Of a stretch of DNA of 64,000 bases, positions 30,614 to 48,894 are shown one piece after another (the stretch's first letter is position 1; the number at the start of each line of letters is the position of its first letter). The notes under the pieces are model-generated. The model did no database searches, had not been told where the DNA came from, and was given only the letters and a program-made list of their open reading frames with translations. Origin of the DNA: Williamsia sp. CHRR-6 (GTDB taxonomy: Bacteria; Actinomycetota; Actinomycetes; Mycobacteriales; Mycobacteriaceae); assembly GCF_018474015.1 (NCBI RefSeq), contig NZ_JAHCSG010000004.1:434001-498000 (forward strand). The letters run 5' to 3'. A program made the position numbers and the translations under genes.

Positions 30614-30753
30614 TCCTCCACAGCCTGTTCAGCGTGTTCTCGCAGCCTGAACAGCGAATATATTCTCGCTTGCCCGGCTCCTCCACAGGCTTTCCACACG
30701 CGGTCAACACAGCTTCTGCCGTGGTCCACAGGTAGTGCACACAGCTGTGCACA
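30614..30753 (+). promoter_or_regulatory. Cluster of DnaA-box-like motifs and a hairpin upstream of dnaB
   Basis: The 589-base stretch 30359–30947 has no supported gene. Part of it is notably AT-rich. In the same orientation it holds TCCTCCACA (30614, 30679), CTTTCCACA (30690), TGGTCCACA (30722, 8 of 9 to mycobacterial TTGTCCACA) and CTGTGCACA (30745). CTGTTCAG (30625–30632) and CTGAACAG (30647–30654) make a perfect inverted repeat. GGAGG at 30934 is the dnaB ribosome site. Control of dnaB by DnaA is a possible reading. Confidence 0.4.
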
Positions 30754-30947
30754 GGGCCGTTTGTGGGCCGCTGACATCGGCCCTATGTTCACGGGGTGGC
30801 CTACGACGGCCTACCTGCAGTAGCGGTCGACCCGGCGCTCGTGGCGAGCCTGTGTCAGACCCCGCAGGTAGGACTGGACTCGGCGCAGCCGGTGGGGGAC
30901 CGGTGGTGGTTTCCTGCCAGGCGGTTCGACTACGGAGGTTTGCAGGC

Positions 30948-33158
30948 GTGGCAGTTGTGGATGATCGTGGGAATCAGCAGCGCGACGAGCCGCCCCCGCC
31001 AGAGGACTTCGGCCGGCAGCCGCCGCAGGATCTGGTGGCCGAGCAGTCGGTACTGGGCGGGATGATGCTGTCCAAGGACGCCATTGCCGATGTGCTGGAG
31101 GTGCTGCGCCCCGGTGACTTCTACCGTCCCGCCCACCAGGCGGTGTACGACGCCGTGCTGGAGCTGTATGGCAAAGGTGAGCCTGCCGACGCGGTGACCG
31201 TCTCGGCGGAGTTGGAACGCAAGGGCGAGTTGCGGCGTATCGGTGGGGCACCGTACCTGCACACTCTCATCTCCACGGTGCCCACCGCAGCCAACGCCGG
31301 TTTCTACGCCGAGATCGTGGCGGAGAAGGCCATCCTGCGGCGGTTGGTGGAGGCGGGTACGCGCATCGTGCAGTTCGGCTACGCCGGTGCTGACGGCCAG
31401 GACGTGGCCGAGGTGGTCGACCGGGCGCAGGCGGAGGTCTACGAGGTGACCGAGCGCCGTACCGCCGAGGACTACGTGGCGTTGGAGGAGCTGCTGCAGC
31501 CGACGATGGACGAGATCGACTCCATCGCCTCCCGCGGCGGCATATCGCTTGGTGTGCCAACCGGTTTCGCTGATCTGGACGCGGTCACCAACGGCCTGCA
31601 CCCAGGCCAGATGATCATCGTGGCGGCCCGTCCCGGTGTGGGCAAGGCGTTGGCGCTGGACACCCCGCTGCCCACACCACGCGGCTGGACCACCATGGGT
31701 GAGGTTCGGGTGGGCGATCACCTCCTCGACGCCGCTGGTCGCCCCACCAGGGTGGTCGCGGCCACCGAGGTGATGACCGAGCGCCCGTGCTTCGAGGTGG
31801 AGTTCTCCGACGGCACCGTGCTGGTGGCCGACGCGCAGCATCAGTGGCTGACCGAATGCGATGGCGTGTCGGCGGTGCAGACCACGGCAGCGTTGCGCTC
31901 GCAGGTGGGTGCGGTCGAGGTGCGCAACGCCGCACCGTTGGACCTGCCGTGGCGGCACTTCTGCTACGGCCCCTACACCGTTGCGGCGTTGGCGGGCATG
32001 GCTTTCGACGATCCGGAGATCGCCTTGCGAATCGAGGCCGAGGGTCCGGTCGACGTGATGGCTTTGATGGCCGATCTCGGCGGCCGTATCCCGCACGAGT
32101 ACCTGCGGGGGTCGCAGGCGCAACGGCGGGCGCTGCTGGCCGGGCTGCTCGACGCCCGCGGCATCGTCGACGAGGACGGCTGGATCACCGTTCCGGCCGC
32201 CACCCAGCACATGTCGACCGTGGTGGCCGATCTGGTTGCTGGACTGGGGTATTCGTATCGTCGGTCCGAGACCGGTTGGGTGCGTGTGGACATCGGCGAC
32301 GATGTGTTCACCGTCCATCACAAAGCGTTGCGCCACAAGGAGTTGCGTGGCCACAGCACCACCCGCACCGTGGTTGCGGTGCGTCCGGTGCCCAGCGTGC
32401 CGGTGCGGTGTGTGCAGGTCGACAACGCCGAGCACATGTATCTGGCGGGCGAATCGATGGTGCCGACCCACAATTCGACGCTGGCCATGGATTTCCTGCG
32501 GAGCTGCTCGATCGCCAATCAGATGACCAGCGCGATGTTCTCGCTGGAGATGAACAAGACCGAGATCGTGATGCGGCTGCTGTCGGCGGAAGCGAAGATC
32601 AAGCTGGCCGACATGCGCGCCGGGCGGATGAGTGACGCCGACTGGACCAACCTGGCCCGCCGGATGGGGGAGATCTCCGAGGCGCCGATGTTCATCGATG
32701 ACTCGCCGAACCTCACCATGATGGAGATCCGCGCGAAGGCGCGTCGACTCAAGCAGCGCCATGACCTCAAACTCATCGTCATCGACTACATGCAGCTGAT
32801 GTCCTCAGGCAAGAAGGTCGAATCCCGTCAGCAGGAGGTCTCGGAGTTCTCGCGCAGCATCAAGCTGCTGGCCAAGGAACTAGAAGTCCCCGTGGTCGCC
32901 ATCAGCCAGCTCAACCGTGGCCCCGAACAGCGAACTGACAAGCGCCCCATGGTGTCTGACCTTCGCGAGTCGGGCTCTCTGGAACAAGATGCGGACATGG
33001 TGATCCTGCTGCACCGGCCGGATGCGTTTGAGCGTGACGATCCCCGCGCGGGTGAGGCCGACATCATCTTGGGCAAGCACCGCAACGGCCCCACCGCGAC
33101 CATCACCGTGGCCCACCAGCTGCATCTGTCCCGCTTCGTCGACATGGCGCGCGGCTGA
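30948..33158 (+). CDS. dnaB: Replicative DNA helicase DnaB with intein
   Basis: The 736-codon precursor yields a helicase of about 460 residues after splicing. The N-terminal domain is PPQDLVAEQSVLGGMMLSKDAIADVLEVL…FYRPAHQAVYDA. The RecA-like core has Walker A as GVGK, interrupted by the intein, then STLAMDF. Walker B is LKLIVIDYMQLM, and the final motifs are EVPVVAISQLNRGPEQRTDKRPMVSDLRESGSLEQDAD. The GTG at 30948 follows GGAGG by nine bases. It unwinds DNA at the replication fork as a hexamer. Immediately after its stop the sequence changes character and a transposon end begins. Confidence 0.97.
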   Translation: MAVVDDRGNQQRDEPPPPEDFGRQPPQDLVAEQSVLGGMMLSKDAIADVLEVLRPGDFYRPAHQAVYDAVLELYGKGEPADAVTVSAELERKGELRRIGGAPYLHTLISTVPTAANAGFYAEIVAEKAILRRLVEAGTRIVQFGYAGADGQDVAEVVDRAQAEVYEVTERRTAEDYVALEELLQPTMDEIDSIASRGGISLGVPTGFADLDAVTNGLHPGQMIIVAARPGVGKALALDTPLPTPRGWTTMGEVRVGDHLLDAAGRPTRVVAATEVMTERPCFEVEFSDGTVLVADAQHQWLTECDGVSAVQTTAALRSQVGAVEVRNAAPLDLPWRHFCYGPYTVAALAGMAFDDPEIALRIEAEGPVDVMALMADLGGRIPHEYLRGSQAQRRALLAGLLDARGIVDEDGWITVPAATQHMSTVVADLVAGLGYSYRRSETGWVRVDIGDDVFTVHHKALRHKELRGHSTTRTVVAVRPVPSVPVRCVQVDNAEHMYLAGESMVPTHNSTLAMDFLRSCSIANQMTSAMFSLEMNKTEIVMRLLSAEAKIKLADMRAGRMSDADWTNLARRMGEISEAPMFIDDSPNLTMMEIRAKARRLKQRHDLKLIVIDYMQLMSSGKKVESRQQEVSEFSRSIKLLAKELEVPVVAISQLNRGPEQRTDKRPMVSDLRESGSLEQDADMVILLHRPDAFERDDPRAGEADIILGKHRNGPTATITVAHQLHLSRFVDMARG
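31647..32474 (+). other. DnaB class 3 intein with decayed homing endonuclease
   Basis: A 276-residue intein sits in the P-loop, between Lys233 and the restored Ser of GK-S. It starts with Ala instead of Cys/Ser (ALALDTPLPTPRGW), has the block B Trp in HQW, a Cys in block F (VRCVQVD) and Thr in the terminal PTHN. This is the W-C-T triad of class 3 inteins, first described for a mycobacteriophage DnaB. A LAGLIDADG-type motif is present as LLAGLLDARG, with the catalytic Asp replaced by Arg, and no good second copy is seen. Splicing should work; endonuclease activity should not. Confidence 0.9.
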
Positions 33159-34504: not shown

Positions 34505-35128
34505 GTGAGCTTCCCCGAGGATCTGACTATGGTGCTCACCGGCGTCACCGCGCACCAGCTGCGCAGCTGGCGATCGACCGGCTTACTGGTACCAGAGATC
34601 AGCCCGAAAAGGCCGCCGCTGTACTCGTTCCGCGACCTGGTCGCGCTGCGGGTTGTGGCACATCTACGCGCGAGCACTTCGCTGCAGCAGGTGCGGAAGG
34701 CTTTCACGAACTTGGAAGAGTTCGACCTCACGGACCACCCGTCCAAGTACAAATTCGCCGTCGCCGACGGCAGCATCGCGGTGTGGACCGACGAAGGGTT
34801 CATGGATCTGGTGAAGAACCCCGGCCAGTACCACATCGTCTCACTCGCTGACATCTATCGGCCGTTCCGCAACCACCGCAACGACGAGGTGGTGGATTTC
34901 GAGCACCCGCGCGAGATGTTGCGCGGCGATGCTCGTCGCCTCGGGGGATGGCCAACGATCGACGGGACCCGGGTGCCCTTCGACACGGTCGCCGATGCGA
35001 TGAGCGGTGACAGCCCGATCAACCCCGAAGACCTCCGCCATTTCTACCCAGGTGTGACGGCAGCGGCTGCCGCCGATGCACTGGGCTTCGCAGAGGGCGT
35101 CGCCATCCGAAGCCGGCGGTCGGCATGA
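34505..35128 (+). CDS. MerR-HTH plus DUF433 antitoxin (VapB45-like)
   Basis: This 207-residue two-domain protein has residues 5–70 as a MerR-like winged helix (LTGVTAHQLRSWRSTGLLVPEISPKRPPLYSFRDLVALRVVAHLR). Residues about 140–195 form a DUF433 domain (GGWPTIDGTRVPFDTVADAM … YPGVTAAAAADALGFAEGV). The same layout is seen in M. tuberculosis Rv2018 (VapB45). The GTG at 34505 follows AGGAGGAGG. Its stop overlaps the toxin ATG (ATGA). It should bind its own promoter, near TATGGT at 34448–34453, and neutralise the PIN-like toxin. Confidence 0.8.
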   Translation: MSFPEDLTMVLTGVTAHQLRSWRSTGLLVPEISPKRPPLYSFRDLVALRVVAHLRASTSLQQVRKAFTNLEEFDLTDHPSKYKFAVADGSIAVWTDEGFMDLVKNPGQYHIVSLADIYRPFRNHRNDEVVDFEHPREMLRGDARRLGGWPTIDGTRVPFDTVADAMSGDSPINPEDLRHFYPGVTAAAAADALGFAEGVAIRSRRSA

Positions 35129-35577
35129 AGTTCTTCCTCGACGAGAACATCAACGACGGGTGTCTGGCGCCGCCGCGCGCCGTGTACCGCGACCACGAAT
35201 TCCGCCACGCCCACGACGAGGGGTTGGCCGGAGAGCAGGACGTTCCGCTGTTCGGCAAGCTGCAGGAGCAGAAGTACGATGCCATCCTCACCAAGGACCG
35301 CAATCAGCTGACGAACCCTGAGGAACGGCGTGCGCTGTTTGACTCTGGCCTTCACTGGATCGGCCACGTCGCCAAGGGGTTCAAGGGTCTGATGAACCTG
35401 ACGATGGAGACCGCGACGGTCACCGCGGGCCTGATCTACGTGCTGAACGATTGGAAGCGTGAGCCGCACAGCTACCAACTGCGCGGGATTCCTAACGAGC
35501 CCGGGCGGCGGGTGAAGGTGCGGGCCGTTGCGCTCGGTGAATGGCCGGACGACTACAGCGGCCGCGGAGTCGCGTAG
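35125..35577 (+). CDS. PIN-like (DUF5615/VapC45-type) toxin
   Basis: The 150-residue protein starts [12 protein letters not shown], the first acidic pair of the DUF5615 PIN-like family. It has [30 protein letters not shown] in the middle, the usual position of the second acidic cluster. It resembles Rv2019 (VapC45), the partner of Rv2018. It is translationally coupled to the antitoxin. Predicted to be an RNase that blocks growth when released. It lies directly upstream of the TIR–caspase operon, separated by a 168-base gap that may carry that operon's promoter. Confidence 0.78.
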
Positions 35578-35745: not shown

Positions 35746-36117
35746 ATGACCGACAAGAAGACCGTATTCATCGCGTTCGCGATCGAGGACGAGCGCCAGC
35801 GCGACCTACTGAAAGGGCAGTCGCTGCACCCGCGCTCCCCGTACGAGTTCATCGACATGTCGGTGAAGGAGCCTTACGACACCGGGTGGAAGGAGAAGGT
35901 TCGCACACGCATCCGCCGCTCCCACGGAGTCATCGCACTCGTGAGCAAGAACTCGCTGACGTCCTCCGGGCAGAAGTGGGAGATCCAATGCGCCAAGGAC
36001 GAGGGCAAGCCACTGCTCGGAGTCTGGGCTTACGCCTCCGACCGTACGAATCTCGCCGGCGTCCGGACGGTGCCCTGGACCGACGTGAACATCGCCGGCT
36101 TCATCGACTCGCTCTGA
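35746..36117 (+). CDS. TIR-like (ThsB-type) signalling enzyme
   Basis: This 123-residue single-domain TIR-like protein of the MTH538/ThsB group begins [17 protein letters not shown] and continues with [62 protein letters not shown]. The predicted catalytic glutamate is Glu79 in KWEIQCA. In Thoeris systems such proteins sense phage and turn NAD into cyclic ADP-ribose-type messengers. GGGGG lies before the ATG. The stop overlaps the caspase ATG (TGATG), so the two are co-translated. It is probably the sensor of a type IV Thoeris-like system. Confidence 0.85.
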
Positions 36118-37109
36118 TGCCGAGGGACACGCGCAAGGCGCTCATCATCGGGATTGATCACTATGACAAGATCCAGTCGCTCAGCGGCGCAGTGAACGAC
36201 GCTCACAGCGTCAAGGCCGCGTTGGAACGGCATGCCGACGGCACGCTCAACTTCGCGCAACCGCGGCTGATGACGGCTACCGGTCCGGGAGCAGCTGTGT
36301 CCCGCACGGAGTTGCGTGAGGCGGTTCAGGAGCTGTTCAAGGACGATGCCGAGATCTCGCTGTTGTACTTCTCCGGACACGGCTACATCGACGGGGCCGG
36401 CGGGTACCTATGTGCGAGCGACTGCGCCTCCGGGCACGACGGTCTCTCGCTCAACGAAGTGCTGACCTTCGCCAACAGCTCGCCGGCGAAGAACAAGGTG
36501 ATCATCCTGGATAGCTGCCACAGCGGGGTGGCCGGCACCAACCCAGTCGCGGAGCAGGTTGCCGAGATCAAGGAGGGAGTCACGATCCTGACCGCGTCGA
36601 CCGCGGAGCAGTACGCGATGGAGTCCGGTGGCTCGGGCGTATTCACGAGCCTGCTTGTCGACGCACTGAACGGGGCTGCGGCCAATCTCGTCGGCGATGT
36701 AACCCCCGGCAGCGTCTACGCGCACATCGACCAGTCGCTCGGTCCGTGGGCGCAGAGACCGGTATTCAAGACGAACATCAAGAAGTTCGTTTCGCTGCGG
36801 GAGGCGGACGCACCGATCGAGCTCGTCAAGCTGCAGCAACTCACTGTCCTGTTCAACCTACCGACCGTGCAGCTCCAACTCGATCCGAGCTATGAGCCTG
36901 AGCGCACGGGAAACGAGGACGACTCGGTTCCGCCGCCGGACCCGGCCAAGAACGCCGATTTCGCTGTGCTGCAGGAGTTGGTCAGGGTCAACCTGGTCCG
37001 CCCGGTTGGTGCGCCGCACATGTGGCACGCAGCGATGCAGAACAAGGCGTGCGAGCTCACCGTCCTTGGCCAGCACTACTGGAAGCTCGTGAAGCAGGAC
37101 CTGATCTGA
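36117..37109 (+). CDS. Caspase-like (C14) protease effector, type IV Thoeris-like
   Basis: This is a 330-residue protein. The N-terminal 220 residues form a caspase-haemoglobinase fold: [31 protein letters not shown], the His dyad residue His88 in [12 protein letters not shown], and the nucleophile Cys134 in [10 protein letters not shown], then TAS and [12 protein letters not shown] blocks. A linker rich in Pro/Asp (277–288) leads to a small helical C-terminal domain ([13 protein letters not shown] … [24 protein letters not shown]), a candidate ligand sensor. Paired with a TIR gene it matches reported TIR–caspase immunity, in which an ADP-ribose-type signal switches on proteolysis and abortive death. 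It is co-translated with both neighbours (TGATG overlaps). Confidence 0.85.
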
Positions 37110-37390
37110 TGCCATCGACCGACGCAATTCGGAAGGTTCTAGAGAGTGAGCAGCTCGTCGACGAGCTCGCCGCCGTCGAGCACGAGCGTTGGGCGCACTG
37201 GCAGCGGTACGTCCATGACCACTGCGAGCGCCAGCACGATGGATCCTTAGTGATTCCGGCCGTGCTTGCTGCGCGCTGGGAGGCTCAGATCGAGACACCA
37301 TACGTCAGGCTGTCTGAGCGGGAGAAAGACAGCGACCGGGAGCAGGTTCGTCGGTACCTCCCCGTAATTTCCGACGCTCTCACGCGATGA
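37109..37390 (+). CDS. Small RyR-domain-like protein, third gene of the TIR–caspase operon
   Basis: This 93-residue protein starts at an ATG that overlaps the caspase stop (TGATG); the frame upstream is a shadow. Its sequence, LAAVEHERWAHWQRYV … TPYVRLSEREKDSDREQVRRYLPVI, resembles the Ryanodine-receptor-type (RyR) repeats found in phage and bacterial conflict proteins. There, a Trp-rich helix and LSExEKxxDR are shared. RyR domains have been proposed to bind nucleotide-derived ligands. In this operon it could sense, bind or remove the TIR product, or target the caspase. The RyR assignment is moderate and the function is inferred. Confidence 0.65.
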   Translation: MPSTDAIRKVLESEQLVDELAAVEHERWAHWQRYVHDHCERQHDGSLVIPAVLAARWEAQIETPYVRLSEREKDSDREQVRRYLPVISDALTR

Positions 37391-37763: not shown

Positions 37764-38279
37764 ATGCGATTCACGGAAACTCTCAAGGACGCCAAGGGCC
37801 GCAAGACCGCTAAGCGCCGGATCGTCCTGATCGATATCGAAAATGTTGTCGGTGGTCTATCTGCTGTCCGCGGTTACGTCTCATGGGCCAAGGCCGTAGT
37901 AGGTGAGTGCGTCCCGGCGCAGTCTGGTGATCAGGTTGTGATCGGCGTTGGTCCAACTGGATTGCTGGACCTCGCCTGCGTATGGAAGAGCGTCAGGTAC
38001 GTCATGCGTCCAGGACAGAACGGCGCAGATTTGGCCTTGCTTGAAGTGCTTAGCGAAAACATCGCCGACCGCTTTACCGAAGTCGTACTGGTGTCGGGCG
38101 ACGGAATTTTCACGCACGCGATTGCTGAACTCGCTGCGCGGGGAGTGACGACAACTGTGGTTGCACACGCCAGCGGTTTGTCTCGGCGGCTGGAGCTCGC
38201 TGCCGCAGAGGTCAGGCTACTTCCCGAGCAGCCGTCGCCGCGATCTGTCGCAGCCGTGTCGAACATGGATGTGGCCTGA
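37764..38279 (+). CDS. NYN-domain (PIN-like) nuclease
   Basis: This 171-residue protein has a basic start and then the NYN core: RIVLIDIENVVGG with Asp24 and Asn27, NGADLALLEVLSENI, VVLVSGDGIFTHAIAELAARGVTTTVVA and a LSRRLELAAAEVRLLP tail. The acidic residues expected for metal-dependent RNase activity are present. The ATG at 37764 was chosen by homology. Its stop overlaps the start of the methylase-like gene (TGATG), so the two proteins are made together. NYN nucleases cut RNA in many contexts. Coupling to a DNA-modification-type protein suggests a conflict system. Confidence 0.83.
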   Translation: MRFTETLKDAKGRKTAKRRIVLIDIENVVGGLSAVRGYVSWAKAVVGECVPAQSGDQVVIGVGPTGLLDLACVWKSVRYVMRPGQNGADLALLEVLSENIADRFTEVVLVSGDGIFTHAIAELAARGVTTTVVAHASGLSRRLELAAAEVRLLPEQPSPRSVAAVSNMDVA

Positions 38280-40366
38280 TGGGTGAATCGGCAGGGGTGC
38301 TGCTCACTCCGAGCGAGATCGCAGACCTGGCGGGCGTCACGCGAGGAGCAGTCACCAACTGGAGGAAGCGGCCGAGCGATCCGCCATTTCCAGATCCGGC
38401 GCCGGAGTCAGCGACCAAGCCGCTGTACGACCTGGATAAAGTCATCGCTTGGCTTGCTGAAACGAAGCCGGAGATCCAGATACAACGCGACAGCGGTCTG
38501 GCGGCGCTTTCGCATTCGTTGAACGTGCTGCGGGGACGTGTATCGGGTTCGGTAGCGGGTGAGCTCGCTCTAGCCCTGTGTTGTGCAAAGAAGCTGTCGC
38601 TAGAAGCCGCCGACGCGAATTGGAGGCTTATAGCGGCAGCCAGTCCGTCTCAAACAGCGGATGTACTGCGGCGGATTGCGACCGACGCGCAGTGGGACGA
38701 CATTCTTTCAACCCTCGATGATGTTGAGCGGGAGACAAACGGGCGGCTCGACACACTCCCGATCGCGGCCGTGGTGAGCGCCGTTGACGGGATCGAGCCT
38801 GACCGCTTGGCGGTTGCGGCAGACGAGGTGCTCCGACGCGGAAGCGGTGAACGCGGTCGCGCCGCCGGGTACGGAGTCGGCGAACACGGGATTGTGAACT
38901 CGCGCGTATCGGAACTCCTTTCGAGCCTCGCATCGTCGACCAAGGGCCTCGTCTATGACCCCGCATGCGGGATTGCTGAGGCACTCATTCGGACGCGGAC
39001 GAAACGCGCGGGGGGTGTTCGCTTGGTCGGCCACGACATCAATGTGCGCGCCATTCGGATTGCTCGCATGCGCAGCTTCCTGCATGAGCTGAACGCCGAG
39101 TTCGAGTGTGCCGACGTGCTGCTCGAAGACCCTGCCCCAGATCTTCGAGCCGACACCGTCGTCGCTGAACCTCCGTTTGGTATGGACTGGTCGCGCTCCC
39201 AGAACATCGCGGATCCGCGTTGGGCCTTCGGCATACCGCCCGCGAACAACTCCGAGTTGGCCTGGCTTCAGCACGCAATTGCTCACTTGAAGCCGGATGG
39301 GAGTGCATACGTCGTCACATCCATGGCACCGTTGACGGCGCGTGGCAGCAGCACCGCGATCCGCGCCGAACTGCTCCGATCAGGCTGGATCGAAGCCGTC
39401 ATTCTGCTACCCCCAAAGATGCTGCCGCACACTACTATTCCGGTAGCACTATGGGTATTGCGGCAGGCGGACCATCCGTCCAACACGGTTGACGTCTTAC
39501 TGATTGACGCTTCGGCGGCGGAGAGTCCTGAGACACACGTACTTTCGTGGCTAGACGACTGCCTAAACGGATCGGCGGTCGACGCGCCGCCGTATGCACT
39601 GGTCACAACGTTGGACCTGCTCGCTGATGACGCACAGCTCGATCCTCGGCGCTGGGTACAAACACCTGGCTCCGATCCGAAGGACGTGGCGGCTCGTCTC
39701 TCCGACTCGCAGCGTGTTCTCCAGAACGCACTCGCCTCGTTGTTGGATCGCGCGGTAGTGCCGGTACCGCAGGGACCGTCGGCAGCGCCGCGGCTCCTGA
39801 CCGTGAAGGAACTAGTGCAACTAGGTGTGGCCTCGATTCAGAACGGACGCATCAAACGGGATGACCTCGACGAAGCAGATGCCGCTGTGCTGATCACGCC
39901 GAGCGAGGTGCGCGACGGGCTACCGGTGCTCGACGAGTTGCCGACCGATGGACAGCCAAGCCTGGCAGGCGGACGCGACGAACGAACGCGAGCCGGCGAC
40001 GTGCTGGTGACGACCTGGAATGCCGTCCGGGCGGTGGTCGATGAGCAGGGCGGCCGAATCATCGGCAGTGGCGTACATCGTCTGCGCGTCGATGACAAGC
40101 AATGCGAACCGCACTACGTAGCACGGTGCCTGTGCGGCAGTTGGAACGAACGATTCAAGAAGGGTTCGTCCATTCAACGCGTTGATCTGCGGGATCTTGA
40201 AATTCCGCTAGTCCCGCTGCCGGATCAGGAACGCCTTGTCGAAGCATTACGTGAGATCGAGCAACTTGCTCGACATGCCGCGGCGGTGGCCGAGGCCGCT
40301 GCAGCTTCCGCCACCGCGATCCTCGACGCCGTGCGGTACGACGCGCCGATGGACGACAACAAGTGA
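38279..40366 (+). CDS. Atypical N6-adenine methylase fused to a specificity (TRD) domain
   Basis: This 695-residue protein starts with a helix-turn-helix (LLTPSEIADLAGVTRGAVTNWRKR, 9–32) that includes a DPPFPDPAP hinge. A type I HsdM-like methylase core follows, about 190–420, with motif I changed to DPACGIAEAL (Asp227) and motif IV to EPPF (Glu297) instead of NPPF/Y. The C-terminal part, about 500–690, looks like half an HsdS: RAGDVLVTTWNAVRAVV, then SSIQRVDLRDLEIPLVPLPDQERLVEAL, and an Ala-rich coiled end. The altered motifs may mean lost or unusual methylation. It is co-translated with the NYN nuclease and lies before, not within, the regular hsd operon. Confidence 0.8.
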   Translation: MGESAGVLLTPSEIADLAGVTRGAVTNWRKRPSDPPFPDPAPESATKPLYDLDKVIAWLAETKPEIQIQRDSGLAALSHSLNVLRGRVSGSVAGELALALCCAKKLSLEAADANWRLIAAASPSQTADVLRRIATDAQWDDILSTLDDVERETNGRLDTLPIAAVVSAVDGIEPDRLAVAADEVLRRGSGERGRAAGYGVGEHGIVNSRVSELLSSLASSTKGLVYDPACGIAEALIRTRTKRAGGVRLVGHDINVRAIRIARMRSFLHELNAEFECADVLLEDPAPDLRADTVVAEPPFGMDWSRSQNIADPRWAFGIPPANNSELAWLQHAIAHLKPDGSAYVVTSMAPLTARGSSTAIRAELLRSGWIEAVILLPPKMLPHTTIPVALWVLRQADHPSNTVDVLLIDASAAESPETHVLSWLDDCLNGSAVDAPPYALVTTLDLLADDAQLDPRRWVQTPGSDPKDVAARLSDSQRVLQNALASLLDRAVVPVPQGPSAAPRLLTVKELVQLGVASIQNGRIKRDDLDEADAAVLITPSEVRDGLPVLDELPTDGQPSLAGGRDERTRAGDVLVTTWNAVRAVVDEQGGRIIGSGVHRLRVDDKQCEPHYVARCLCGSWNERFKKGSSIQRVDLRDLEIPLVPLPDQERLVEALREIEQLARHAAAVAEAAAASATAILDAVRYDAPMDDNK

Positions 40367-40442
40367 TCCCGCATTCCGTCAGAACTGGGGTGCCACACTC
40401 GTGCGACACCCACAGTAAGCGCAGTTTCAGAAGGAGAGTCAA

Positions 40443-42179
40443 TTGAGCAAGCTGGGCAACTTCGTGTGGGGTATCGCCGACCAGCTCCGTGGTGTGTATA
40501 AGCCACACCAATACGGCGGGGTGATCTTGCCCTTCACAATCCTGAGGCGTCTGGACTGCATCCTCGAACCCACCCGCGACGAGGTGCGTGAGTTGGCCGA
40601 GAAACACCCCGGAGGCGCGTTGGATGTGCAGGTGAAGCGTAAGACCGGCCTCGCCTTCTACAACACGAGTCCCTTCGATTTCAAGCTCCTCTTGAAGGAT
40701 CCGGAGGGTCTGCGCGCCAACCTGATGGATTACATCACCGGGTTCTCGGCCAACATTGATGTGTTCGAGCGGTTCAAGTTCGAGAACGAACTCGCCACAC
40801 TCGACGAGAAGAACCGGCTGTACCTCGTGACGTCACAGTTCGCCGAGGTGGACTTGCACCCCAACGCTGTGTCCAACGCCGAAATGGGGGATCTATTCGA
40901 GCACCTCATCTATAAGTTCGCGGAAGCCTCCAACGAGGAGGCTGGTGAGCACTACACCCCACGTGACGCGATCCGGTTGATGGTCGATTTGTTGTTTGCC
41001 GAGGACAATGTCGCTCTGCTCGAACCTGGGACTGTGCGGACTATCTATGACCCCACAGCGGGCACCGGCGGCATGCTCTCCGTTGCCGAGGAGAGACTCC
41101 TCGAACGAAACCCCAGTGCGCGGCTGCGGCTGTACGGGCAAGAGATCAACGACCAGTCCTACGCGATCTGTAAGTCCGACATGATCGCCAAGGGACAGGA
41201 CGTGGGGAATATCAAGCTCGGCGACACCCTGGCCGACGATCTCTTCTTCGATCGCACCTTCGATTTCTGCATGTCCAATCCGCCGTACGGAGTGGATTGG
41301 AAGGCGTCGCAGGAGTCTGTGAAAAAGGAGGCGTTAGTTCAGAATTCGCGCTTCTCACACGGTTTACCGTCAATTGGGGACGGACAGATGCTGTTCCTGT
41401 CGCATCTGGCATCGAAGATGCGGCCAGCGCACGACGGAGGTGGCCGCGCCGGCATTGTTCTCAACGGATCGCCCTTGTTCAACGGAGCGGCAGGGTCGGG
41501 TCCCTCCTTGATCAGACAGTGGCTGCTCGAATCCGACCTGGTGGAGGCGATCGTTGCGTTGCCGACGAACATGTTCTTCAACACCGGGATTGCCACGTAC
41601 ATCTGGATTCTGGACAACGCCAAGCGTCCTGAGCGTGCCGGCAAGATCCAGTTGATCGACGCCACCTCGTTCTGGACCAAGCTGCGGAGGAACCTCGGCG
41701 CGAAGGGGCGCGAGGTCGACGCCAAGTCCCGGGACCGGATTCTGGCGCTCTACGACGCGTTCGACCAAGCCGACCCGGAGTACTCCAAGGTGTTTACCGC
41801 CAACGACTTCGCCTACTGGACGGTCACGGTCGAGCGTCCACTTCTGACCCAAACAGGGAAGGTGTCGACGGACCGGAGAGGCAACCCGAAGCCGGACGCT
41901 AAGCTGCGCGACACCGAGAACGTCCCCTTTACCTACGCCGGTAACACTGACGGCGATGCCAGCCGAGCAGCGACGATCAAGGCGTACCTCGACGCCGAGG
42001 TCCTGCCACACGTACCGGACGCGTGGATCGACACGGCGAAAACGAAGGTAGGCTACGAGATTCCGCTCACTCGGCACTTCTACAGGTACGTTCCGCCCCG
42101 ACCGCTGGCTGATATCGACGCGGACCTGGAGAAGCAAGTTGCCAAAATCATGGACTTGCTGCGGGAGGTTGAGGGGTGA
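40443..42179 (+). CDS. hsdM: Type I restriction-modification methylase subunit HsdM
   Basis: This 578-residue methylase starts at a TTG preceded by AAGGAGAG. The N-terminus SKLGNFVWGIADQLRGVYKPHQYGGVILPFTILRRLDCIL is typical. SAM motif I is DPTAGTGGML (Asp203) and catalytic motif IV is NPPYGVDW (279–282). It methylates adenine in the HsdS-defined site and forms the M2S core. The stop overlaps the hsdS GTG (GTGA). All motifs look intact, unlike those in the methylase-like gene just upstream. Confidence 0.95.
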   Translation: MSKLGNFVWGIADQLRGVYKPHQYGGVILPFTILRRLDCILEPTRDEVRELAEKHPGGALDVQVKRKTGLAFYNTSPFDFKLLLKDPEGLRANLMDYITGFSANIDVFERFKFENELATLDEKNRLYLVTSQFAEVDLHPNAVSNAEMGDLFEHLIYKFAEASNEEAGEHYTPRDAIRLMVDLLFAEDNVALLEPGTVRTIYDPTAGTGGMLSVAEERLLERNPSARLRLYGQEINDQSYAICKSDMIAKGQDVGNIKLGDTLADDLFFDRTFDFCMSNPPYGVDWKASQESVKKEALVQNSRFSHGLPSIGDGQMLFLSHLASKMRPAHDGGGRAGIVLNGSPLFNGAAGSGPSLIRQWLLESDLVEAIVALPTNMFFNTGIATYIWILDNAKRPERAGKIQLIDATSFWTKLRRNLGAKGREVDAKSRDRILALYDAFDQADPEYSKVFTANDFAYWTVTVERPLLTQTGKVSTDRRGNPKPDAKLRDTENVPFTYAGNTDGDASRAATIKAYLDAEVLPHVPDAWIDTAKTKVGYEIPLTRHFYRYVPPRPLADIDADLEKQVAKIMDLLREVEG

Positions 42180-43333
42180 GTCAGCCAGCACTGGCTTCAT
42201 GGTCCGAGAAAGCGCTAAAGCACTGGGTCGAGAGCCTCGACGGTCGCCGGATCCCACTTAGTGCGGAAGAGCGGGGCGGACGACAAGGCGCTTACCCCTA
42301 TTATGGTGCTTCAGGGGTAATCGATCACATCGACGGATTTCTGTTCAACGAACCGTTGGTCCTGGTTGCGGAAGATGGCGCTAACCTGCTCTCGCGGTCC
42401 ACACCTATCGCGTTCCTCGCTACCGGGAAATACTGGGTCAACAACCACGCCCACGTATTGAAGCCACGTTCAGGTCCTGCGCGCTACTGGGCCTATCGAC
42501 TCGAATCTGTTGACGTGACTCCATTCATAACCGGATCGGCACAGCCGAAGTTCACAGCAGCAGCGCTCATGGATATGAGGGTTACTGCACCTGAGTCCGT
42601 AGATGAACAGGATGCCATCGCCGACTTCCTCGACCGAGAGACGGCCCAGATTGACACGCTTACCGTAGAGCAGCAGCGGCTCGTCGAGATGCTCCGAGTT
42701 CGCAAGCGGGCGGTCTTGGACCAGGTGACGGGAGCGGCCTCAGGAACTCGCGTCCGCCTGAAGTACCTTTTCGCGCCGTCATCCGAAGCGAATCATCCGG
42801 ACGAAGAGGTGTTGTCGGTGTATCGCGACTACGGGGTTATCCCGAAGTCCTCCCGCGACGACAACTTCAACCGCACACCCGAGAACGTCGCGCGGTACTT
42901 GCTTGTGCGGCCAGGCGATCTAGTCATCAACCGGATGAAGGCGTGGCAGGGGTCGTTGGGCGTCTCGGAGTATCGAGGCATCGTCAGCGGTGACTACGAA
43001 GTGGTGCGGCCAATCGGCAACCGCCTGCTGCCGCGTTTCGCGCACCTTTTCCTGCGGAGCCCTCTGATGGTCGCTGACTACGCCGTAAGGTCGACCGGAA
43101 TCCGCCCGTCGCAGTGGCGCCTTTATTGGGACCAGATGGGGAACGTCGAGGTCCCAGTACCGCCGCCCGCGGAACAGGCCGGCATTGTGGAGCGCATCGA
43201 CGAGCAGACCACAAAGATCGACACCCTCATCGCCGAGACGGAGCGGTTCATTGAGCTGGCGCGCGAGCGTCGTGCCGCGCTGATTGCCGCCGCGGTGACC
43301 GGGCAGATTGCCATCCGAGCGGAGGTGGACTGA
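42176..43333 (+). CDS. hsdS: Type I restriction-modification specificity subunit HsdS
   Basis: The 385-residue protein has two target-recognition domains, each ending in a conserved helix. TRD1 (about 1–140) leads to DEQDAIADFLDRETAQIDTLTVEQQRLVEMLRVRKRAVL. TRD2 (about 200–335) leads to PAEQAGIVERIDEQTTKIDTLIAETERFIELARERRAALI. The two helical repeats give the internal symmetry of HsdS. The recognition sequence cannot be predicted. It is translationally coupled to hsdM and three bases from hsdR. Confidence 0.94.
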   Translation: MSQPALASWSEKALKHWVESLDGRRIPLSAEERGGRQGAYPYYGASGVIDHIDGFLFNEPLVLVAEDGANLLSRSTPIAFLATGKYWVNNHAHVLKPRSGPARYWAYRLESVDVTPFITGSAQPKFTAAALMDMRVTAPESVDEQDAIADFLDRETAQIDTLTVEQQRLVEMLRVRKRAVLDQVTGAASGTRVRLKYLFAPSSEANHPDEEVLSVYRDYGVIPKSSRDDNFNRTPENVARYLLVRPGDLVINRMKAWQGSLGVSEYRGIVSGDYEVVRPIGNRLLPRFAHLFLRSPLMVADYAVRSTGIRPSQWRLYWDQMGNVEVPVPPPAEQAGIVERIDEQTTKIDTLIAETERFIELARERRAALIAAAVTGQIAIRAEVD

Positions 43334-43336
43334 GCC

Positions 43337-46300
43337 ATGGCTCAGCACAACGAGATCGAATTCGAAAAGGACATCGCCGAGTATCTCGCCGCCCGCGGCT
43401 GGATGTACTCGCCGAACGACACTGGGTACGACAAGGAACGCGCGTTGTTCCCCGAGGATGTCCTTGGCTGGCTCGCGGACACCCAGCCCGACCAGTTGGA
43501 GAAGGTCGTCAAGCCCGGCTCGAAGGATGTTGCCAAGCAGCAAGCGCAGGTTCTCGACCGGATTGTGAAAGTGCTCGATCTGCCGTTGGAAAATGGTGGC
43601 GGTACCCTAAACCTTTTGCGTAAGGGCTTCTCACATTTGGCTGCGAAGTTTCAGACGTGCGTGTTCAAACCCGAGTCCACGCTGAATGCCAAGCGCAACG
43701 CCGACTACGCAGCTGTGAGGGTGCGGGTGATGCGCCAGGTGCACTTCTCAACCGCTGGCAATCAATCGGTCGATCTTGTGTTCTTCGTCAATGGACTGCC
43801 GGTGGCTACAGCCGAGCTCAAGACGGATTTCACCCAGACTGTCGCCGATGCCATCACCCAGTATCGGACGTCGCGGCTGCCAAAGGACCCGGTGTCCGGG
43901 AAACTGCAGCCGTTGTTCACGGCTGGCGCGCGGGCCCTGGTGCACTTCGCGATATCGAACGACGAGGTGTGGATGACCACTCGGTTGGCCGGTGAGAAAA
44001 CGCACTTCTTGCCGTTCAACCGCGGCTCCGAAACAGGCGGCGCCGGGAATCCCCTGAATCCCAACGGGTCACGAACGTCCTACCTCTGGGAGCGGGTACT
44101 GCAGCGCGACGCGTGGCTCAACATCTTGGGCCGGCTCATGTACATCAAGCACGAATCCTCAACCGACCCGATCAGCGGGAAGACCAGCAAGTCGGCAACG
44201 CTGCGGTTTCCCCGCTTCCATCAGTGGGAAGCGGTCACCGAACTCACCGCGGCGGTCACCACCGAGGGCGCTGGCAAGCGCTACCTGATCCAGCACTCTG
44301 CAGGTTCTGGCAAGACCGACTCGATCGCATGGACAGCGCACCGGATGGCCCGGTTGCAGGTCGACGACCAGAAGGTCTTCGACTCCGTCATCGTGGTCAC
44401 TGACCGCAACGTCCTCGACGCTCAACTGCAGGACGCAATCAAGCAGATCGACAACGACCAAGCCATCGTCGTGGCAATCGACCGCGACGAGGCAGCCAAA
44501 GCCGGCGCCTCGAAGTCAGGGCTCCTGGCAAAGGCGCTCACCGACGGGAAACTGATCATCGTCGTCACCATCCAGACGTTCCCATTCGCGATGCAAACGA
44601 TCCGAGAAAACAAGGGGCTCAAGGGCAAGAAATTCGCCGTCGTCGCCGACGAAGCGCACTCGTCACAGTCTGGGCAGGTCGCCGGCAAATTGAAGGCGGT
44701 GTTGACCGCCGAGGAACTCAAGGAGATCGGAGAAGGCAAAGAGATCGACGTCGAGGCCGTCTTGGCCGCCGAAGCCACTGAACGAGCGGCATCGGAGAAC
44801 ATTTCCTACTTTGCGTTCACCGCCACCCCAAAAGCCAAGACCCTCGAACTGTTTGGCCGCGAGCCGGCACCGTACGAGAACCCGGTGCCGTTCCACGTCT
44901 ACACGATGAAACAGGCCATCGAAGAGGGCTACATCCTCGACGTACTGACCGGCTATCACTCGTTCAAGCTCGCCTTCCAGATCGGGCAGAACGCGGGTGG
45001 CGGTGACGAGGTAGACCAGAACGAAGCCACCAAAGCAGTTATGCGTTGGGTCAAACTCAACCCGCAGACGATCTCGCAGAAGGCCGCCATATCCGTCGAA
45101 CACTTCCGCGAGAACGTCGCATCACTACTTGACGGTCACGCCAAGGCCATGGTCGTCACCGACTCCCGCAAGGCCGCCGTCCGCTACAAACTCGCGATTG
45201 ACGACTACATCGCCAAGAAGGGCTACGGCTACGGCACCCTGGTCGCGTTCTCCGGTGCGGTGCAGGATCCCGAATCCGGTCCGAATGACTTCACCGAAGC
45301 GACCATGAACCCGGGCGTGCACGATCTGCGCACCGCGTTCCGCGGAGACGACTACAAAATCATGATTGTCGCCAATAAGTTCCAGACCGGGTTCGATCAG
45401 CCGCTGCTCTGCGCGATGTACGTCGACCGGATCTTGTCCGGGGTGACGGCCGTGCAGACTCTGTCTCGGCTGAACCGCACCTACCGCACCCCGTCGGGGA
45501 TAGTGAAGACGGCGGCCATGACTCAGGTCGTGGACTTCGTCAACGAACCCGCCGCCATCAAAGATGCGTTCGAGCCGTACTTCACCGATGCGTTCTTGGA
45601 AACTGCGACCGATCCGAACTTGGTGCATGACCTCGCCGCAAAGCTCGACACCGCCGCGATCTACACCCAAGTCGAGATCGACCAGTGCGCTGAATCTTTC
45701 GTGAAGGGCAAGGGCAACAGCGCTCTTGCCGGGGCGGTCGGCCCGGGCCAAAAGCGCTTCGCTGACCGGTACACCGCGGCTCTGATTCACAACGGCGGCG
45801 AGGGAGACAGGGCTGCGCTAGCGGAGCTGGACATGTTCCGCAAGGACGTCGGGTCGTTCGTCCGCCTCTACGACTTCATGTCGCAGATCATCGACTACGG
45901 CGATCCCGGGTTGGAGAAGAAGCAGATCTACCTGCGACTTCTCGACCGGTTCATCCAGTCGGAAAACTACACAGCGCCCATCGACCTGTCCGACGTAGTG
46001 CTCAAGCAGGTCAAGCAGATTGACCGAGGCCGAATCGACATCGGCCTCGGTGTGCGTGTCGGGTTGTCCGGGGTCACTGCTGCTGGCTCGGGTGAGAAGC
46101 GGGATCCGAAAATGGTGGCATTCCAACAGGTTCTCGATCGTCTCAACGACCTGTTCGGGTCGGAGGACTTCACCCAATCCCAAAAGGTGTCGTTCCTCGA
46201 AGCGTTACTGCGAACACTGCTCGACGACCATGCGCTCGTCCAGCAGGCAAAGGTCAACTCCGCTAAGCAGTTCGTCGAGTCGCCCGACTTCGACGATGCG

Positions 46301-46456
46301 GTTACCGGTGCAGTCGCTGACAACCAAGGTGCTCACGAAAAGATGAGCGATTACTTCTTCACCAACGCGCCGGGCCGCACCCACCTGATGTCCGACATCG
46401 CGAAGTGGTTCTACCAGGTCGTCACGTCAGAGACCGAGCACATCTCGTTGCAGTAA
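43337..46456 (+). CDS. hsdR: Type I restriction enzyme subunit HsdR
   Basis: This 1039-residue motor-nuclease has an N-terminal PD-(D/E)xK nuclease with SVDLVFFVNGLPVATAELKTDF near 145–165. The SF2 translocase has Walker A HSAGSGKTDS (Lys326), DEAH at 438–441 and TFTATPKAKTLE-type motif III (FAFTATP). Helicase domain 2 includes VANKFQTGFDQPLLCAMYVDR and QTLSRLNRTYRTPSG. The C-terminal helical part binds M2S. It cuts unmodified DNA after ATP-driven translocation. It appears complete, so the system should be active. Confidence 0.95.
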   Translation: MAQHNEIEFEKDIAEYLAARGWMYSPNDTGYDKERALFPEDVLGWLADTQPDQLEKVVKPGSKDVAKQQAQVLDRIVKVLDLPLENGGGTLNLLRKGFSHLAAKFQTCVFKPESTLNAKRNADYAAVRVRVMRQVHFSTAGNQSVDLVFFVNGLPVATAELKTDFTQTVADAITQYRTSRLPKDPVSGKLQPLFTAGARALVHFAISNDEVWMTTRLAGEKTHFLPFNRGSETGGAGNPLNPNGSRTSYLWERVLQRDAWLNILGRLMYIKHESSTDPISGKTSKSATLRFPRFHQWEAVTELTAAVTTEGAGKRYLIQHSAGSGKTDSIAWTAHRMARLQVDDQKVFDSVIVVTDRNVLDAQLQDAIKQIDNDQAIVVAIDRDEAAKAGASKSGLLAKALTDGKLIIVVTIQTFPFAMQTIRENKGLKGKKFAVVADEAHSSQSGQVAGKLKAVLTAEELKEIGEGKEIDVEAVLAAEATERAASENISYFAFTATPKAKTLELFGREPAPYENPVPFHVYTMKQAIEEGYILDVLTGYHSFKLAFQIGQNAGGGDEVDQNEATKAVMRWVKLNPQTISQKAAISVEHFRENVASLLDGHAKAMVVTDSRKAAVRYKLAIDDYIAKKGYGYGTLVAFSGAVQDPESGPNDFTEATMNPGVHDLRTAFRGDDYKIMIVANKFQTGFDQPLLCAMYVDRILSGVTAVQTLSRLNRTYRTPSGIVKTAAMTQVVDFVNEPAAIKDAFEPYFTDAFLETATDPNLVHDLAAKLDTAAIYTQVEIDQCAESFVKGKGNSALAGAVGPGQKRFADRYTAALIHNGGEGDRAALAELDMFRKDVGSFVRLYDFMSQIIDYGDPGLEKKQIYLRLLDRFIQSENYTAPIDLSDVVLKQVKQIDRGRIDIGLGVRVGLSGVTAAGSGEKRDPKMVAFQQVLDRLNDLFGSEDFTQSQKVSFLEALLRTLLDDHALVQQAKVNSAKQFVESPDFDDAVTGAVADNQGAHEKMSDYFFTNAPGRTHLMSDIAKWFYQVVTSETEHISLQ

Positions 46457-46584
46457 GTAATCGGAGTCGGCGCTGGCCGGCGTCGTTGTCGCTGAGGATC
46501 GAGTTGTCTCAAACGGCGGCGGTCGTGTCGGTCCCTCGGAGTACCATCGGGGAGTCGAGCAAGACTACGAAATTTGGGGGGCGA

Positions 46585-48894
46585 GTGAAACTCTCGACTA
46601 TGTACGTGCGGTTCTACCGCTCGTTCAATTTCGACTACTTGCGCAAGAGCAGGGAGGACACTACCTCGACGCCGAACCTGTGGGATCTTGTGGGTGATAA
46701 CGATCTGTTCTTTCCCTTCGTGCGCATTCCGCTGGAGCCTGACGTCACCACGGTGGTCGGCGCGAACGAGGCGGGCAAGAGCCAGCTGCTGTACGCGATC
46801 GAGGCGCTGCTGACCGGAGAGGGATACGTCAGGCGCGACTTTTGTAGGTATTCAACGGAATTCGCTGAGGAAGCGGCACCGACTCTGCCCGAGTTCGGTG
46901 GCGAGTTCACCGATCTCACCGAGGACGAGCACACCGCTGTCCTTGCGTTGGCGAAGTGGAATGTGGAGACGATCGACTCCTTCCATTTCTTCCGATTCCA
47001 TGACAGAACGATCGTGTACGTCGGTGAAGAGTCTGTCGAGGTCGACGAGATGCTCTCTGGCCTCACGCTGCCACGTTCGTTTCGAATCGACGCACGAGTG
47101 CCGCTTCCAGACAGTGTCGAGATCGCCTACCTGGCCGGCGACACATCGCGGACCGGGCGGACCCGCGAGGGCTGGCTGGGCCGGATGTCCTTCCTACGCC
47201 GCAACCCCGAGTCGCTGGATACTCCACCCTCAGGCGAGGTCAGGGCGGTGTACGACGGGGCCGACGACCCGCCCAGCGATCGGCTGCTCGAGCAGTGGAA
47301 TCTTGCCCGGCGGCTGCTCCTCGACGTCGCCGAAGTTACCGAGGACGAGTTCCAGGAGCTCGGAGCCGCGATCTCGATCTCAGAGGGTTACGCCGAGGCC
47401 CTCGTGAAGAAATTCAACCGTAAACTGGCCGATAGTCTCAACTTTCGACGATGGTGGACCCAGGACAGCGACTTCTCCCTGCAACTGCGGCTGCGTGATT
47501 TCGATCTGGTGTTCACGATCCGCGACCGGACGGGCACCGACTACACGTTCGCGGAGAGGAGTCAGGGTCTCCAGTACTTCTTAAGCTACTTCGTCCAGTA
47601 CATGTCGCACGACCGAAATAAGGGCGAGATCCTGCTGATGGACGAGCCCGACGCCTTCCTATCGAACTCGGGGCAACAGGACCTGTTGCGGATCTTCGAA
47701 GCATTCGCTCACCCGGACACCGACACGGCGGTCCCGGTCCAGGTCGTCTACGTCACCCACTCCCCGTTCCTGATCGACAAGAATCACGCCGAACGAATTC
47801 GCGTTCTGGAGAAGGGCGAGAATGAGGAGGGAACACGGGTCGTCAAGAACGCGGGGCGCAACCACTACGAGCCGCTGCGATCCGCCCTGGGCGCCTTCGT
47901 CGCTGAGACGACGTTCATCAGCTCGTGCAACCTGATGTTGGAAGGCCAGGCCGATCCCATTCTCCTCGCCGGGGCTAGCGCTGTGGCGAGGAGAGTCGCG
48001 CCTAGCGGCAACGCGCTCGATCTGAACACTCTGACCCTTGTCCCGTGTGGAGGTGCTCGCAACATCGCCTACATGGTTCACCTGGCTCGTGGACGTGACG
48101 AGGATAAGCCGGCAGTGCTCGTCATGGTTGACGACGACGATGAGGGCCGGGCGGCGATCGAGGACGTGAAGGCGATGAAGGGACTATTGCCGACGTCGCT
48201 GGTGTTCACCGTGGCTGACACAGTAGACGGCGAGCGGCGCCCAGGAACTGTCGAACTTGAGGACCTCGTTCCCGTCGCGTTCGCCAACGAAGCCGTTAAG
48301 CGGATCGCGGACGCGGTGCTGCCCGCCGACCAGGCAGGGGCTTTCAGGTCCGCATGGGTCGACGTGAAACCAAGAGGTGGACAGCGGCTCTTCAAGTTGC
48401 TGAAAGACGCCACCATCGCTGCCAGCGCCACGGGCGAACTGGGTCGGCCGCTTGAGCTCGAGAAGGTGCCCTTCGCGCGAAGTGTGATGGATCTTGCGCT
48501 GGCCAAGGACGCCGACCTCGAGCGGCAACAGGAGTTGTACAAGAATTTTCAACCGGTACTCGCGCACATCGAGATGAGGCAACGCGAGGCCATGCGCGAC
48601 CATGCACAGGCAAGGATCTCGACCGTCATCAACCGGCTTCGGAAGAACTTCATTCAGGACCATCCGGGGAGGATCCGCAAGACCGATGCGGTGTCGTTGC
48701 TGGAGTCGTTGCAGGCCCAGCTTCCCCTCGAAGCAGCCGAGGCCGATGCGGTGCTGCAAGGAATGCGCTCCATCCACCGCGACTTCAAACTGGCCGACGA
48801 TCCTCGCTCGATGCTTGATGAACCGGACCTATTCAGGGATCGGCTTTTCACTCTCAGCTACGGAGCGACGAATGCGGTGCAGCAGGAACCCTGA
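46585..48894 (+). CDS. OLD-family ATPase with TOPRIM nuclease domain
   Basis: This 769-residue protein starts at GTG 46585 after a G-rich ribosome site (ATG 46600 is possible). The ABC-type ATPase has Walker A VVGANEAGKSQ (Lys65), a long helical insert, a SQGLQYFLSYFVQY signature and Walker B ILLMDEPDAFLS (Asp353). The TOPRIM domain has Glu453 in LMLEGQADPILLAG and the DDDDEG motif at 516–521. This is the order of class 1 OLD nucleases and of fused PARIS-like proteins. It lies 128 bases after hsdR, with its own likely promoter. It probably acts as an anti-phage nuclease; no UvrD-type partner follows. Confidence 0.85.
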   Translation: MKLSTMYVRFYRSFNFDYLRKSREDTTSTPNLWDLVGDNDLFFPFVRIPLEPDVTTVVGANEAGKSQLLYAIEALLTGEGYVRRDFCRYSTEFAEEAAPTLPEFGGEFTDLTEDEHTAVLALAKWNVETIDSFHFFRFHDRTIVYVGEESVEVDEMLSGLTLPRSFRIDARVPLPDSVEIAYLAGDTSRTGRTREGWLGRMSFLRRNPESLDTPPSGEVRAVYDGADDPPSDRLLEQWNLARRLLLDVAEVTEDEFQELGAAISISEGYAEALVKKFNRKLADSLNFRRWWTQDSDFSLQLRLRDFDLVFTIRDRTGTDYTFAERSQGLQYFLSYFVQYMSHDRNKGEILLMDEPDAFLSNSGQQDLLRIFEAFAHPDTDTAVPVQVVYVTHSPFLIDKNHAERIRVLEKGENEEGTRVVKNAGRNHYEPLRSALGAFVAETTFISSCNLMLEGQADPILLAGASAVARRVAPSGNALDLNTLTLVPCGGARNIAYMVHLARGRDEDKPAVLVMVDDDDEGRAAIEDVKAMKGLLPTSLVFTVADTVDGERRPGTVELEDLVPVAFANEAVKRIADAVLPADQAGAFRSAWVDVKPRGGQRLFKLLKDATIAASATGELGRPLELEKVPFARSVMDLALAKDADLERQQELYKNFQPVLAHIEMRQREAMRDHAQARISTVINRLRKNFIQDHPGRIRKTDAVSLLESLQAQLPLEAAEADAVLQGMRSIHRDFKLADDPRSMLDEPDLFRDRLFTLSYGATNAVQQEP

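Follow-up and report, generated by a model that had tools for sequence, protein, structure and literature searches.

Gene Content and Setting of the Locus

Three genes were found one after the other on the forward strand at positions 35746 to 37390 of the window, by which the whole stretch of 64,000 nucleotides analyzed here is meant; the source genome comprises 4.0 Mb in 14 contigs. They encode a TIR protein, a caspase-like protease and a small protein related to the ryanodine receptor (RyR) domain, and each stop codon overlaps the following start codon in a TGATG motif. Coordinates, frames and both junctions were as given in a preliminary description of this DNA.

35746..36117, + strand: TIR gene (P0001, 123 aa), ThsB-type, PF08937 match, Glu79
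36115..36119, + strand: TGATG, stop of the TIR gene and start of the caspase gene, read from the sequence
36117..37109, + strand: caspase-like protease gene (P0002, 330 aa), PF00656 match, His88/Cys134
37107..37111, + strand: TGATG, stop of the caspase gene and start of the RyR-like gene, read from the sequence
37109..37390, + strand: RyR-like gene (P0003, 93 aa), PF02026 below the cut-off, profile matches to RyR structures

The nearest accepted gene upstream ends at 35577 and the nearest one downstream starts at 37728; hence, the TIR, caspase and RyR-like genes form a separate unit. No promoter was found when the locus was scanned, and the number of terminators called in it was not above that of shuffled sequences.

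The neighboring genes, examined by Pfam/PADLOC-type family scans, placed the operon in a defence island behind dnaB, together with a TnsA-like gene, a MerR/DUF433 and PIN_10 pair, an NYN gene, type I restriction genes, an OLD/GajA-like ATPase and IetAS. The MerR/DUF433 gene overlaps the PIN_10 gene (34505-35577) immediately 5' of the operon in a toxin-antitoxin-like arrangement. Among the type I restriction genes (38279-46456), two different N6-methylase genes (38279 and 40443) precede the specificity and R genes. The OLD/GajA/AriA-like ATPase gene (46405-48894) gave a weak TOPRIM match, and IetA and IetS (49221-52726), an anti-phage pair, were recognized with PADLOC E-values of 4.3e-145 and 2.6e-254. 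The dnaB frame (30735-33158) carries a long insert between the two helicase halves, intein-like by eye.

The TIR Protein and the Caspase-Like Protease

P0001 matched the ThsB_TIR family (PF08937) above its cut-off, with an E-value of 7.7e-9, and the catalytic Glu79 was conserved in 101 of 101 TIR matches from the loci surveyed below, window included (the best 80 of at least 429 relatives plus five). It is the presumed NAD+-consuming signal maker. P0002 matched Peptidase_C14 (PF00656) above the cut-off, with an E-value of 6.3e-19, and NCBIfam NF047832 at 102.6 bits, below the cut-off of 140 for that model. Its His88 and Cys134 were kept in all 85 caspases of the same survey, window included (best 80 of at least 429 plus five). 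Searches of the PDB with the single sequences of P0001 and P0002 gave no relatives at E-values of 0.1 and 0.01. Both assignments made in the preliminary description, a ThsB-type TIR with Glu79 and a caspase-like protease with His88/Cys134, were confirmed, and neither the catalytic Glu nor the catalytic Cys was found mutated in the alignments.

The match to type IV Thoeris that had been noted for the first two genes also held, by families and by adjacency. Type IV Thoeris pairs a TIR with a caspase-like protease (Rousset et al., 2025, as cited in PMC12847820 and PMC13373217), and its TIR is described as making N7-cADPR, which activates the protease (PMC12847820). As in that system, a ThsB-type TIR adjoins a C14 caspase-like protease with a His/Cys dyad, in one operon and within a defence island; unlike that system, the locus carries an extra RyR-like gene. 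The likeness is one of families and gene arrangement.

The Third Gene Encodes a Distant Relative of RyR Domains

RyR (PF02026) was the sole Pfam match of P0003 at E ≤1 (E-value 7.5e-4), at 20.1 bits against a gathering cut-off of 27.4; all three members of the family with bit scores stayed below this cut-off (20.1 for P0003, 14.8 and 18.3). All 18 members of the RyR alignment (A2) matched PF02026 at E ≤1, with a best value of 4.2e-5, the runner-up family matching four of them, and 17 of the 24 sequences in a wider RyR-like set matched at E ≤0.01. The window's own genome gave no match to the PF02026 profile itself at an E-value of 0.001.

A profile of the 24 rows reached multi-repeat RyR chains, 6uhi at 1.1e-8 and 4ert at 9.9e-6; these are whole-chain values, the best single stretch of 6uhi having an i-Evalue of 0.12. 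Single-domain bacterial RyR proteins followed at 2.4e-4 to 7e-3 (6uag 2.4e-4, 3nrt 5.7e-4), and the first non-RyR match appeared at 0.16. The narrower 18-row profile was weaker; its best value was 0.0011, and its RyR matches were interspersed with a single non-RyR chain (0.064). The RyR similarity is weak for a single sequence and moderate for the family. Because RyR structures are reached by the profile and the Pfam score lies below the cut-off, the RyR relationship proposed in the preliminary description is backed by sequence, outside Pfam membership, and the P0003 family is best supported as a distant RyR relative. P0003 shares a PY..L..E..D stretch and an H-x-x-W motif with RyR repeats and bacterial RyR proteins (6uhi, 4ert, 6uag, 3nrt); unlike the repeats of ryanodine receptors, it is a short, single-domain protein, and the family falls under the PF02026 cut-off where scores are known.

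Eighteen residues were invariant when all complete RyR loci (18 with that of the window) were compared, and eight residues, H25, W28, W31, W57, Q60, L68, E72 and D76, were invariant in all 24 sequences from hosts, viral contigs, phages and plasmids. These could be compared with RyDEP, a phage RyR-domain glycosidase reported in 2026 that destroys TIR signals (PMC13232231). According to the main text of that report, RyDEP hydrolyses 2'/3'cADPR, six of eight tested phage homologues bound these molecules, and two homologues are sponges that sequester 2'/3'cADPR; Thoeris types I and VI are defeated (PMC13232231). The catalytic dyad is H75/D117, H100 contacts phosphate, and residue conservation fails to separate hydrolases from sponges among the homologues; the same text describes adenine ligands and cADPRs as ligands of RyR domains, states that phage RyDEP feeds NAD+ resynthesis and that no proteins hydrolysing 2'cADPR or 3'cADPR were known before it, and mentions neither N7-cADPR nor type IV (PMC13232231). 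Phages, then, use RyR-domain-related proteins against TIR immunity.

Positions 12-87 of P0003 aligned to positions 16-82 of the PF02026 profile, and positions 72-117 of RyDEP to positions 26-71. As a result, H25, W28 and D76 fell at the profile positions of RyDEP H75, W78 and D117, provided that the alignments have no gaps adjacent to their ends, and the Pro-to-Asp spacing was 12 residues in both proteins (P64-D76 in P0003, P105-D117 in RyDEP). A counterpart of RyDEP H100 was absent, the position being A59 in P0003 and other than His in 24 of 24 rows, and the His-to-Asp segment was nine residues longer in P0003. Compared profile to profile, the family and eight RyDEP-type phage proteins matched weakly, over 16 columns (probability 5, E-value 0.0077; 1.9 and 0.026 with the narrower profile). 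RyDEP acts on TIR signals, and the likeness of P0003 to it is one of sequence, in the pocket His, Trp and Asp and in the shared relation to PF02026; unlike RyDEP, P0003 is host-encoded inside a defence operon. Since conserved homologues of RyDEP can be sponges, the residues of P0003 cannot tell a hydrolase from a sponge.

The RyR-Like Gene Is a Lineage-Specific Accessory of TIR-Caspase Loci

In a first sample of 298 genomes of the order, 17 gave a caspase match, and the window and four others were near full length. An alignment of these five caspases was scanned against 84,980 species genomes, which yielded at least 586 stretches, at least 429 of them encoding relatives. The best 80 of these plus five loci, the window's own included, made up the 85 caspase loci compared here, and the counts apply to these nearest relatives.

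An RyR-like ORF was found directly 3' of the caspase gene in 19 of the 85 loci (L002, L003, L004, L019-L022, L024-L030, L033, L038, L047, L052 and L064; best 80 of at least 429 plus five), 18 of them complete and one, L025, cut by a contig end. Among their hosts are Actinomycetota, Alpha-, Beta- and Gammaproteobacteria as well as a single Acidobacteriota MAG. In ten of the 18 complete loci the RyR-like gene started no later than the final base of the caspase stop codon, whereas the start in the other eight lay within 9 bp; start sites were chosen by a script, and that of L020 was moved to 6978. No other non-TIR gene was as common in the slot behind the caspase among these 85 nearest loci (best 80 of at least 429 plus five). 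The next family there, a membrane protein resembling DUF6338 by eye, filled it in three loci by clustering, and a TIR gene occupied the slot in 18.

The remaining 66 of the 85 loci were devoid of the RyR-like gene (best 80 of at least 429 plus five), L054 being counted among them with just 190 bp behind its caspase. The RyR-like gene is therefore the mark of a sub-lineage, and its being part of every TIR-caspase system was ruled out.

Some other neighbors were observed in the same survey. DUF6338-like membrane proteins were encoded near the caspase in L049, L086 and L094, and also at 375-1046 of L005, the Pfam search having been made on L005. In L005 and L006, two distant actinobacterial loci, the gene behind the caspase (1022-1498 in both) encodes about 157 aa with a GHQ motif; the product looks SLOG-like by eye and gave no Pfam match. 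Additionally, L059 (Segetibacter koreensis) and L074 (Staphylococcus equorum) shared an identical caspase and the same downstream gene, probably through contamination of one assembly.

When the caspase tree of the 85 rows (best 80 of at least 429 plus five) was examined, the RyR-like gene was present in 17 of the 19 members of the window's clade (support 100/99), the exceptions being L023 (Nocardia; no TIR by profile) and L032 (a Bdellovibrionales MAG). In a second clade it was present in two of six (L038, Achromobacter, and L064, Xanthomonas dyei), the RyR-less L036 and L040 lying near L038. The presence of the gene required five changes on the tree, against a mean of 17.4 in shuffles. As a finding that would speak against its reading, the preliminary description had named absence of the third gene from homologous loci as a rule; this was half the case, the gene being missing from 66 of the 85 nearest loci but kept in most of the window's clade. 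A single clean origin of the gene was unsupported, given the five changes, at least three of which are forced by starred branches (bootstrap values not fully settled). In the tree of the RyR-like proteins themselves, phage and host copies together, two of 29 inner branches were starred. Hence, the RyR-like gene is a lineage-specific accessory, stable in one lineage and gained or lost elsewhere, and its gain and loss among close caspases suits a modulator role.

Pairwise distances, taken for 15 of the 18 loci that carry all three genes, were correlated between RyR-like protein and caspase (r 0.62, p 0.0002), between TIR and caspase (r 0.63, p 0.0001) and between RyR-like protein and TIR (r 0.29, p 0.03). 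Because host relatedness was not removed from the distances, these correlations indicate co-inheritance at most. The C-terminal region of the caspase (about 230-330) was present also in relatives without the RyR-like gene (alignment A1), and the search for caspase positions specific to loci with the gene gave no clean separator and five partial ones, L005 and L006 being left out.

Copies Found by Searching With the RyR-Like Protein

Plasmids were searched with both proteins. The caspase matched 82 records, and 18 of the 30 listed had an RyR match alongside. The RyR-like protein alone matched 22 records; in 21 of them its gene adjoined a caspase or TIR gene, one being a caspase remnant, and 18 of the 22 adjoined a caspase match by coordinates, the presence of a TIR having been checked in some. 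The arrangement varied: in H84 the RyR gene lies behind a caspase remnant cut by an IS, in H96 it precedes the caspase with two TIR genes nearby, and in H99 a TIR gene precedes it, the cluster also encoding an S8 peptidase and an annotated caspase family protein. In H102, which is archaeal, neither a TIR nor a caspase gene was found beside it.

Furthermore, genomes were sampled with the RyR-like protein alone: 394 from the class, 397 from the order and 396 from the order to which the Sphingomonas genome belongs, with partial overlap between the first two samples. Eight distinct genomes held a full-length copy (G000, G004, G012, G426, G1010, G1108, G1279 and G1402); five of these had supplied profile rows and three were fresh. 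The copy lay directly after a caspase gene in all eight, with a TIR gene too in seven. In the eighth, G012, no TIR was found within 7 kb upstream. G289 held an RyR fragment, with no TIR or caspase within the 2.5 kb examined. A chance neighbor was ruled out by the repeated direct placement after the caspase in loci, plasmids and genomes.

Copies were also present in phages. Ten of 50,697 phage records matched the RyR-like protein: eight Microcystis phages and one cyanophage with a distant copy, and one unverified contig. The neighbors of one of the cyanobacterial-phage matches (L107) were examined, and no TIR or caspase match was found. The unverified contig (MT835687.1, "Bacteriophage sp.", L106) was ruled out as a phage copy; it carries a TIR-caspase-RyR operon of the Sphingomonas type, and its RyR protein reads identical to that of Sphingomonas ginsenosidimutans (L024). 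Nine loci in viral contigs matched as well. Eight showed no TIR or caspase within the sequence examined, which was short on one side for some, and L132 carried a caspase and two TIRs; L137 and L138 encode the same RyR-like protein. Of seven loci checked for phage genes near the RyR gene, four had replication-initiation, tail or terminase genes (L130, replication initiation and HNH; L131, tail sheath and tube; L133 and L138, terminase). L134 and L135 had mainly HNH endonucleases, and the one neighboring protein tried in L136 gave no phage-gene match.

A Possible Signal Sink Within the Operon

We propose, with about even confidence, that the three genes form one antiviral TIR-caspase unit, type IV Thoeris-like, with a built-in signal sink. 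Upon infection, the TIR protein would use NAD+ to make a messenger of the cyclic ADP-ribose type, which in type IV Thoeris is N7-cADPR; this messenger would activate the caspase-like protease, and the resulting protein degradation would halt the infection. The conserved His/Trp/Asp pocket of the RyR-like protein would take up that messenger, which would then be hydrolysed or held. Such a sink could set a threshold against accidental firing and end the signal, much like the ring nucleases of type III CRISPR. Those remove the messenger beside the messenger maker, and viral relatives of them are used as anti-defence, although their fold and messenger are unrelated to those considered here. More specifically, and a little more tentatively, the operon may encode an off-switch of its own, an RyR-like protein that destroys or binds the messenger and has phage relatives, a TIR counterpart of the CRISPR ring nucleases. 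We infer which messenger is made, that it is bound, that it is then hydrolysed or sequestered, and which way the regulation runs.

Since RyDEP and its sponge homologues remove TIR messengers, and the RyR-like protein is translated together with a TIR and a caspase, messenger removal or buffering would be its simplest role. The preliminary description, whose interpretation was borne out in part, had suggested that the protein might sense, store or degrade the messenger; this idea was supported, and degrading or storing fits better than sensing because close caspases occur without the gene and phage relatives occur with no TIR or caspase nearby. In favor of the signal sink are the repeated placement of the gene directly after the caspase, the invariant H25, W28 and D76 at the RyDEP positions, and the viral-contig copies with neither TIR nor caspase in view. 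Against it stand the missing counterpart of RyDEP H100, the weak profile-profile match with RyDEP-type phage proteins, the silence of the RyDEP main text on N7-cADPR and type IV, the PF02026 scores below the cut-off, the rarity of a TIR and the lack of a caspase beside canonical RyR domains (4 and none of 22 loci), and the 66 of the 85 nearest loci (best 80 of at least 429 plus five) that dispense with the gene. The caspase of G012, paired with RyR without a nearby TIR, and RyR distances that track the caspase (0.62) above the TIR (0.29) also speak against it and would suit a direct partner of the caspase.

One such partner would be a receptor or co-activator, which would bind the TIR messenger and relay it to the caspase or influence which messenger the caspase responds to. 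Its fixed slot after the caspase, the co-divergence of both proteins (r 0.62, p 0.0002, 15 loci) and the pair in G012 are in line with this role. We consider it unlikely, though, because close caspase relatives occur without the RyR gene: 66 of the 85 nearest caspases do (best 80 of at least 429 plus five), some nested with carriers (L036 and L040 beside L038), the C-terminal region of the caspase is kept with and without RyR, no position separates both groups cleanly (five partially), and a lone activator would be of little use to a phage. Slightly less probable still is a direct, antitoxin-like inhibitor of the caspase that acts independently of nucleotides. This reading was retained because it also explains the phage copies, as a phage might profit from a caspase inhibitor, and the TIR-less pair in G012; the overlapping genes, the small size of the protein and its closer co-divergence with the caspase than with the TIR agree with it. 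Against it speak the conserved ligand-pocket residues H25, W28 and D76, the binding of adenine ligands and cADPRs reported for RyR domains (main text of PMC13232231), and the occurrence of RyR genes beside TIR genes with no caspase adjoining, in H99 and, as canonical RyR domains, in L108, L121, L123 and L124.

Two further roles appear far less probable than these. Protection from counter-defence, in which the protein would take up phage-made molecules or decoys or recycle ADP-ribose after infection, could draw on the pocket residues and on the feeding of NAD+ resynthesis by phage RyDEP (main text of PMC13232231), but the operon has three genes only, the scanned neighbors gave no NAD+-salvage family and nothing specific was found; we regard it as very improbable. 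The lowest probability of all is given to a substrate or zymogen effector cut by the caspase. The proposal that the RyR-like protein is a caspase target found no support: the common operon is the only point in its favor, whereas 66 of the 85 nearest caspase loci do without the gene (best 80 of at least 429 plus five), phage copies have no caspase within the sequence examined, and a conserved pocket is present instead of a cleavable linker.

If the signal sink within the operon is real, the control and ending of TIR signalling without self-killing become directly testable. The RyR-like gene, tied to the TIR-caspase operon across several phyla, is an immediate candidate for a host signal remover, and three mutable residues, natural pairs of loci with and without the gene, and phage homologues are at hand. 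The locus also places bacterial RyR-like proteins, which are related to a domain of animal calcium channels, in a host setting. The pairing of TIR and caspase was already known, and the RyR-like accessory gene on this defence may be new: no description of the three-gene form was found in the open-access literature searched, nor any host counterpart of RyDEP by titles and abstract openings.

Canonical RyR Domains Beside TIR Genes

Among 396 genomes of the phylum, 19 had canonical RyR domains (PF02026); that of the window was not one of them. A TIR match lay alongside in four of the 22 canonical RyR loci and a caspase in none of them; RyR as such is therefore not tied to TIR. The four (L108, L121, L123 and L124), from the same phylum, represent a separate TIR-RyR pairing, and in L123 the TIR gene adjoins the gene for a larger RyR protein. 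Additionally, a Sphingomonas plasmid (L104, NZ_CP155753.1) carries a cluster of caspase, S8 peptidase, a protein of unknown family, TIR and RyR genes, in this order, which is perhaps a further TIR system with RyR.
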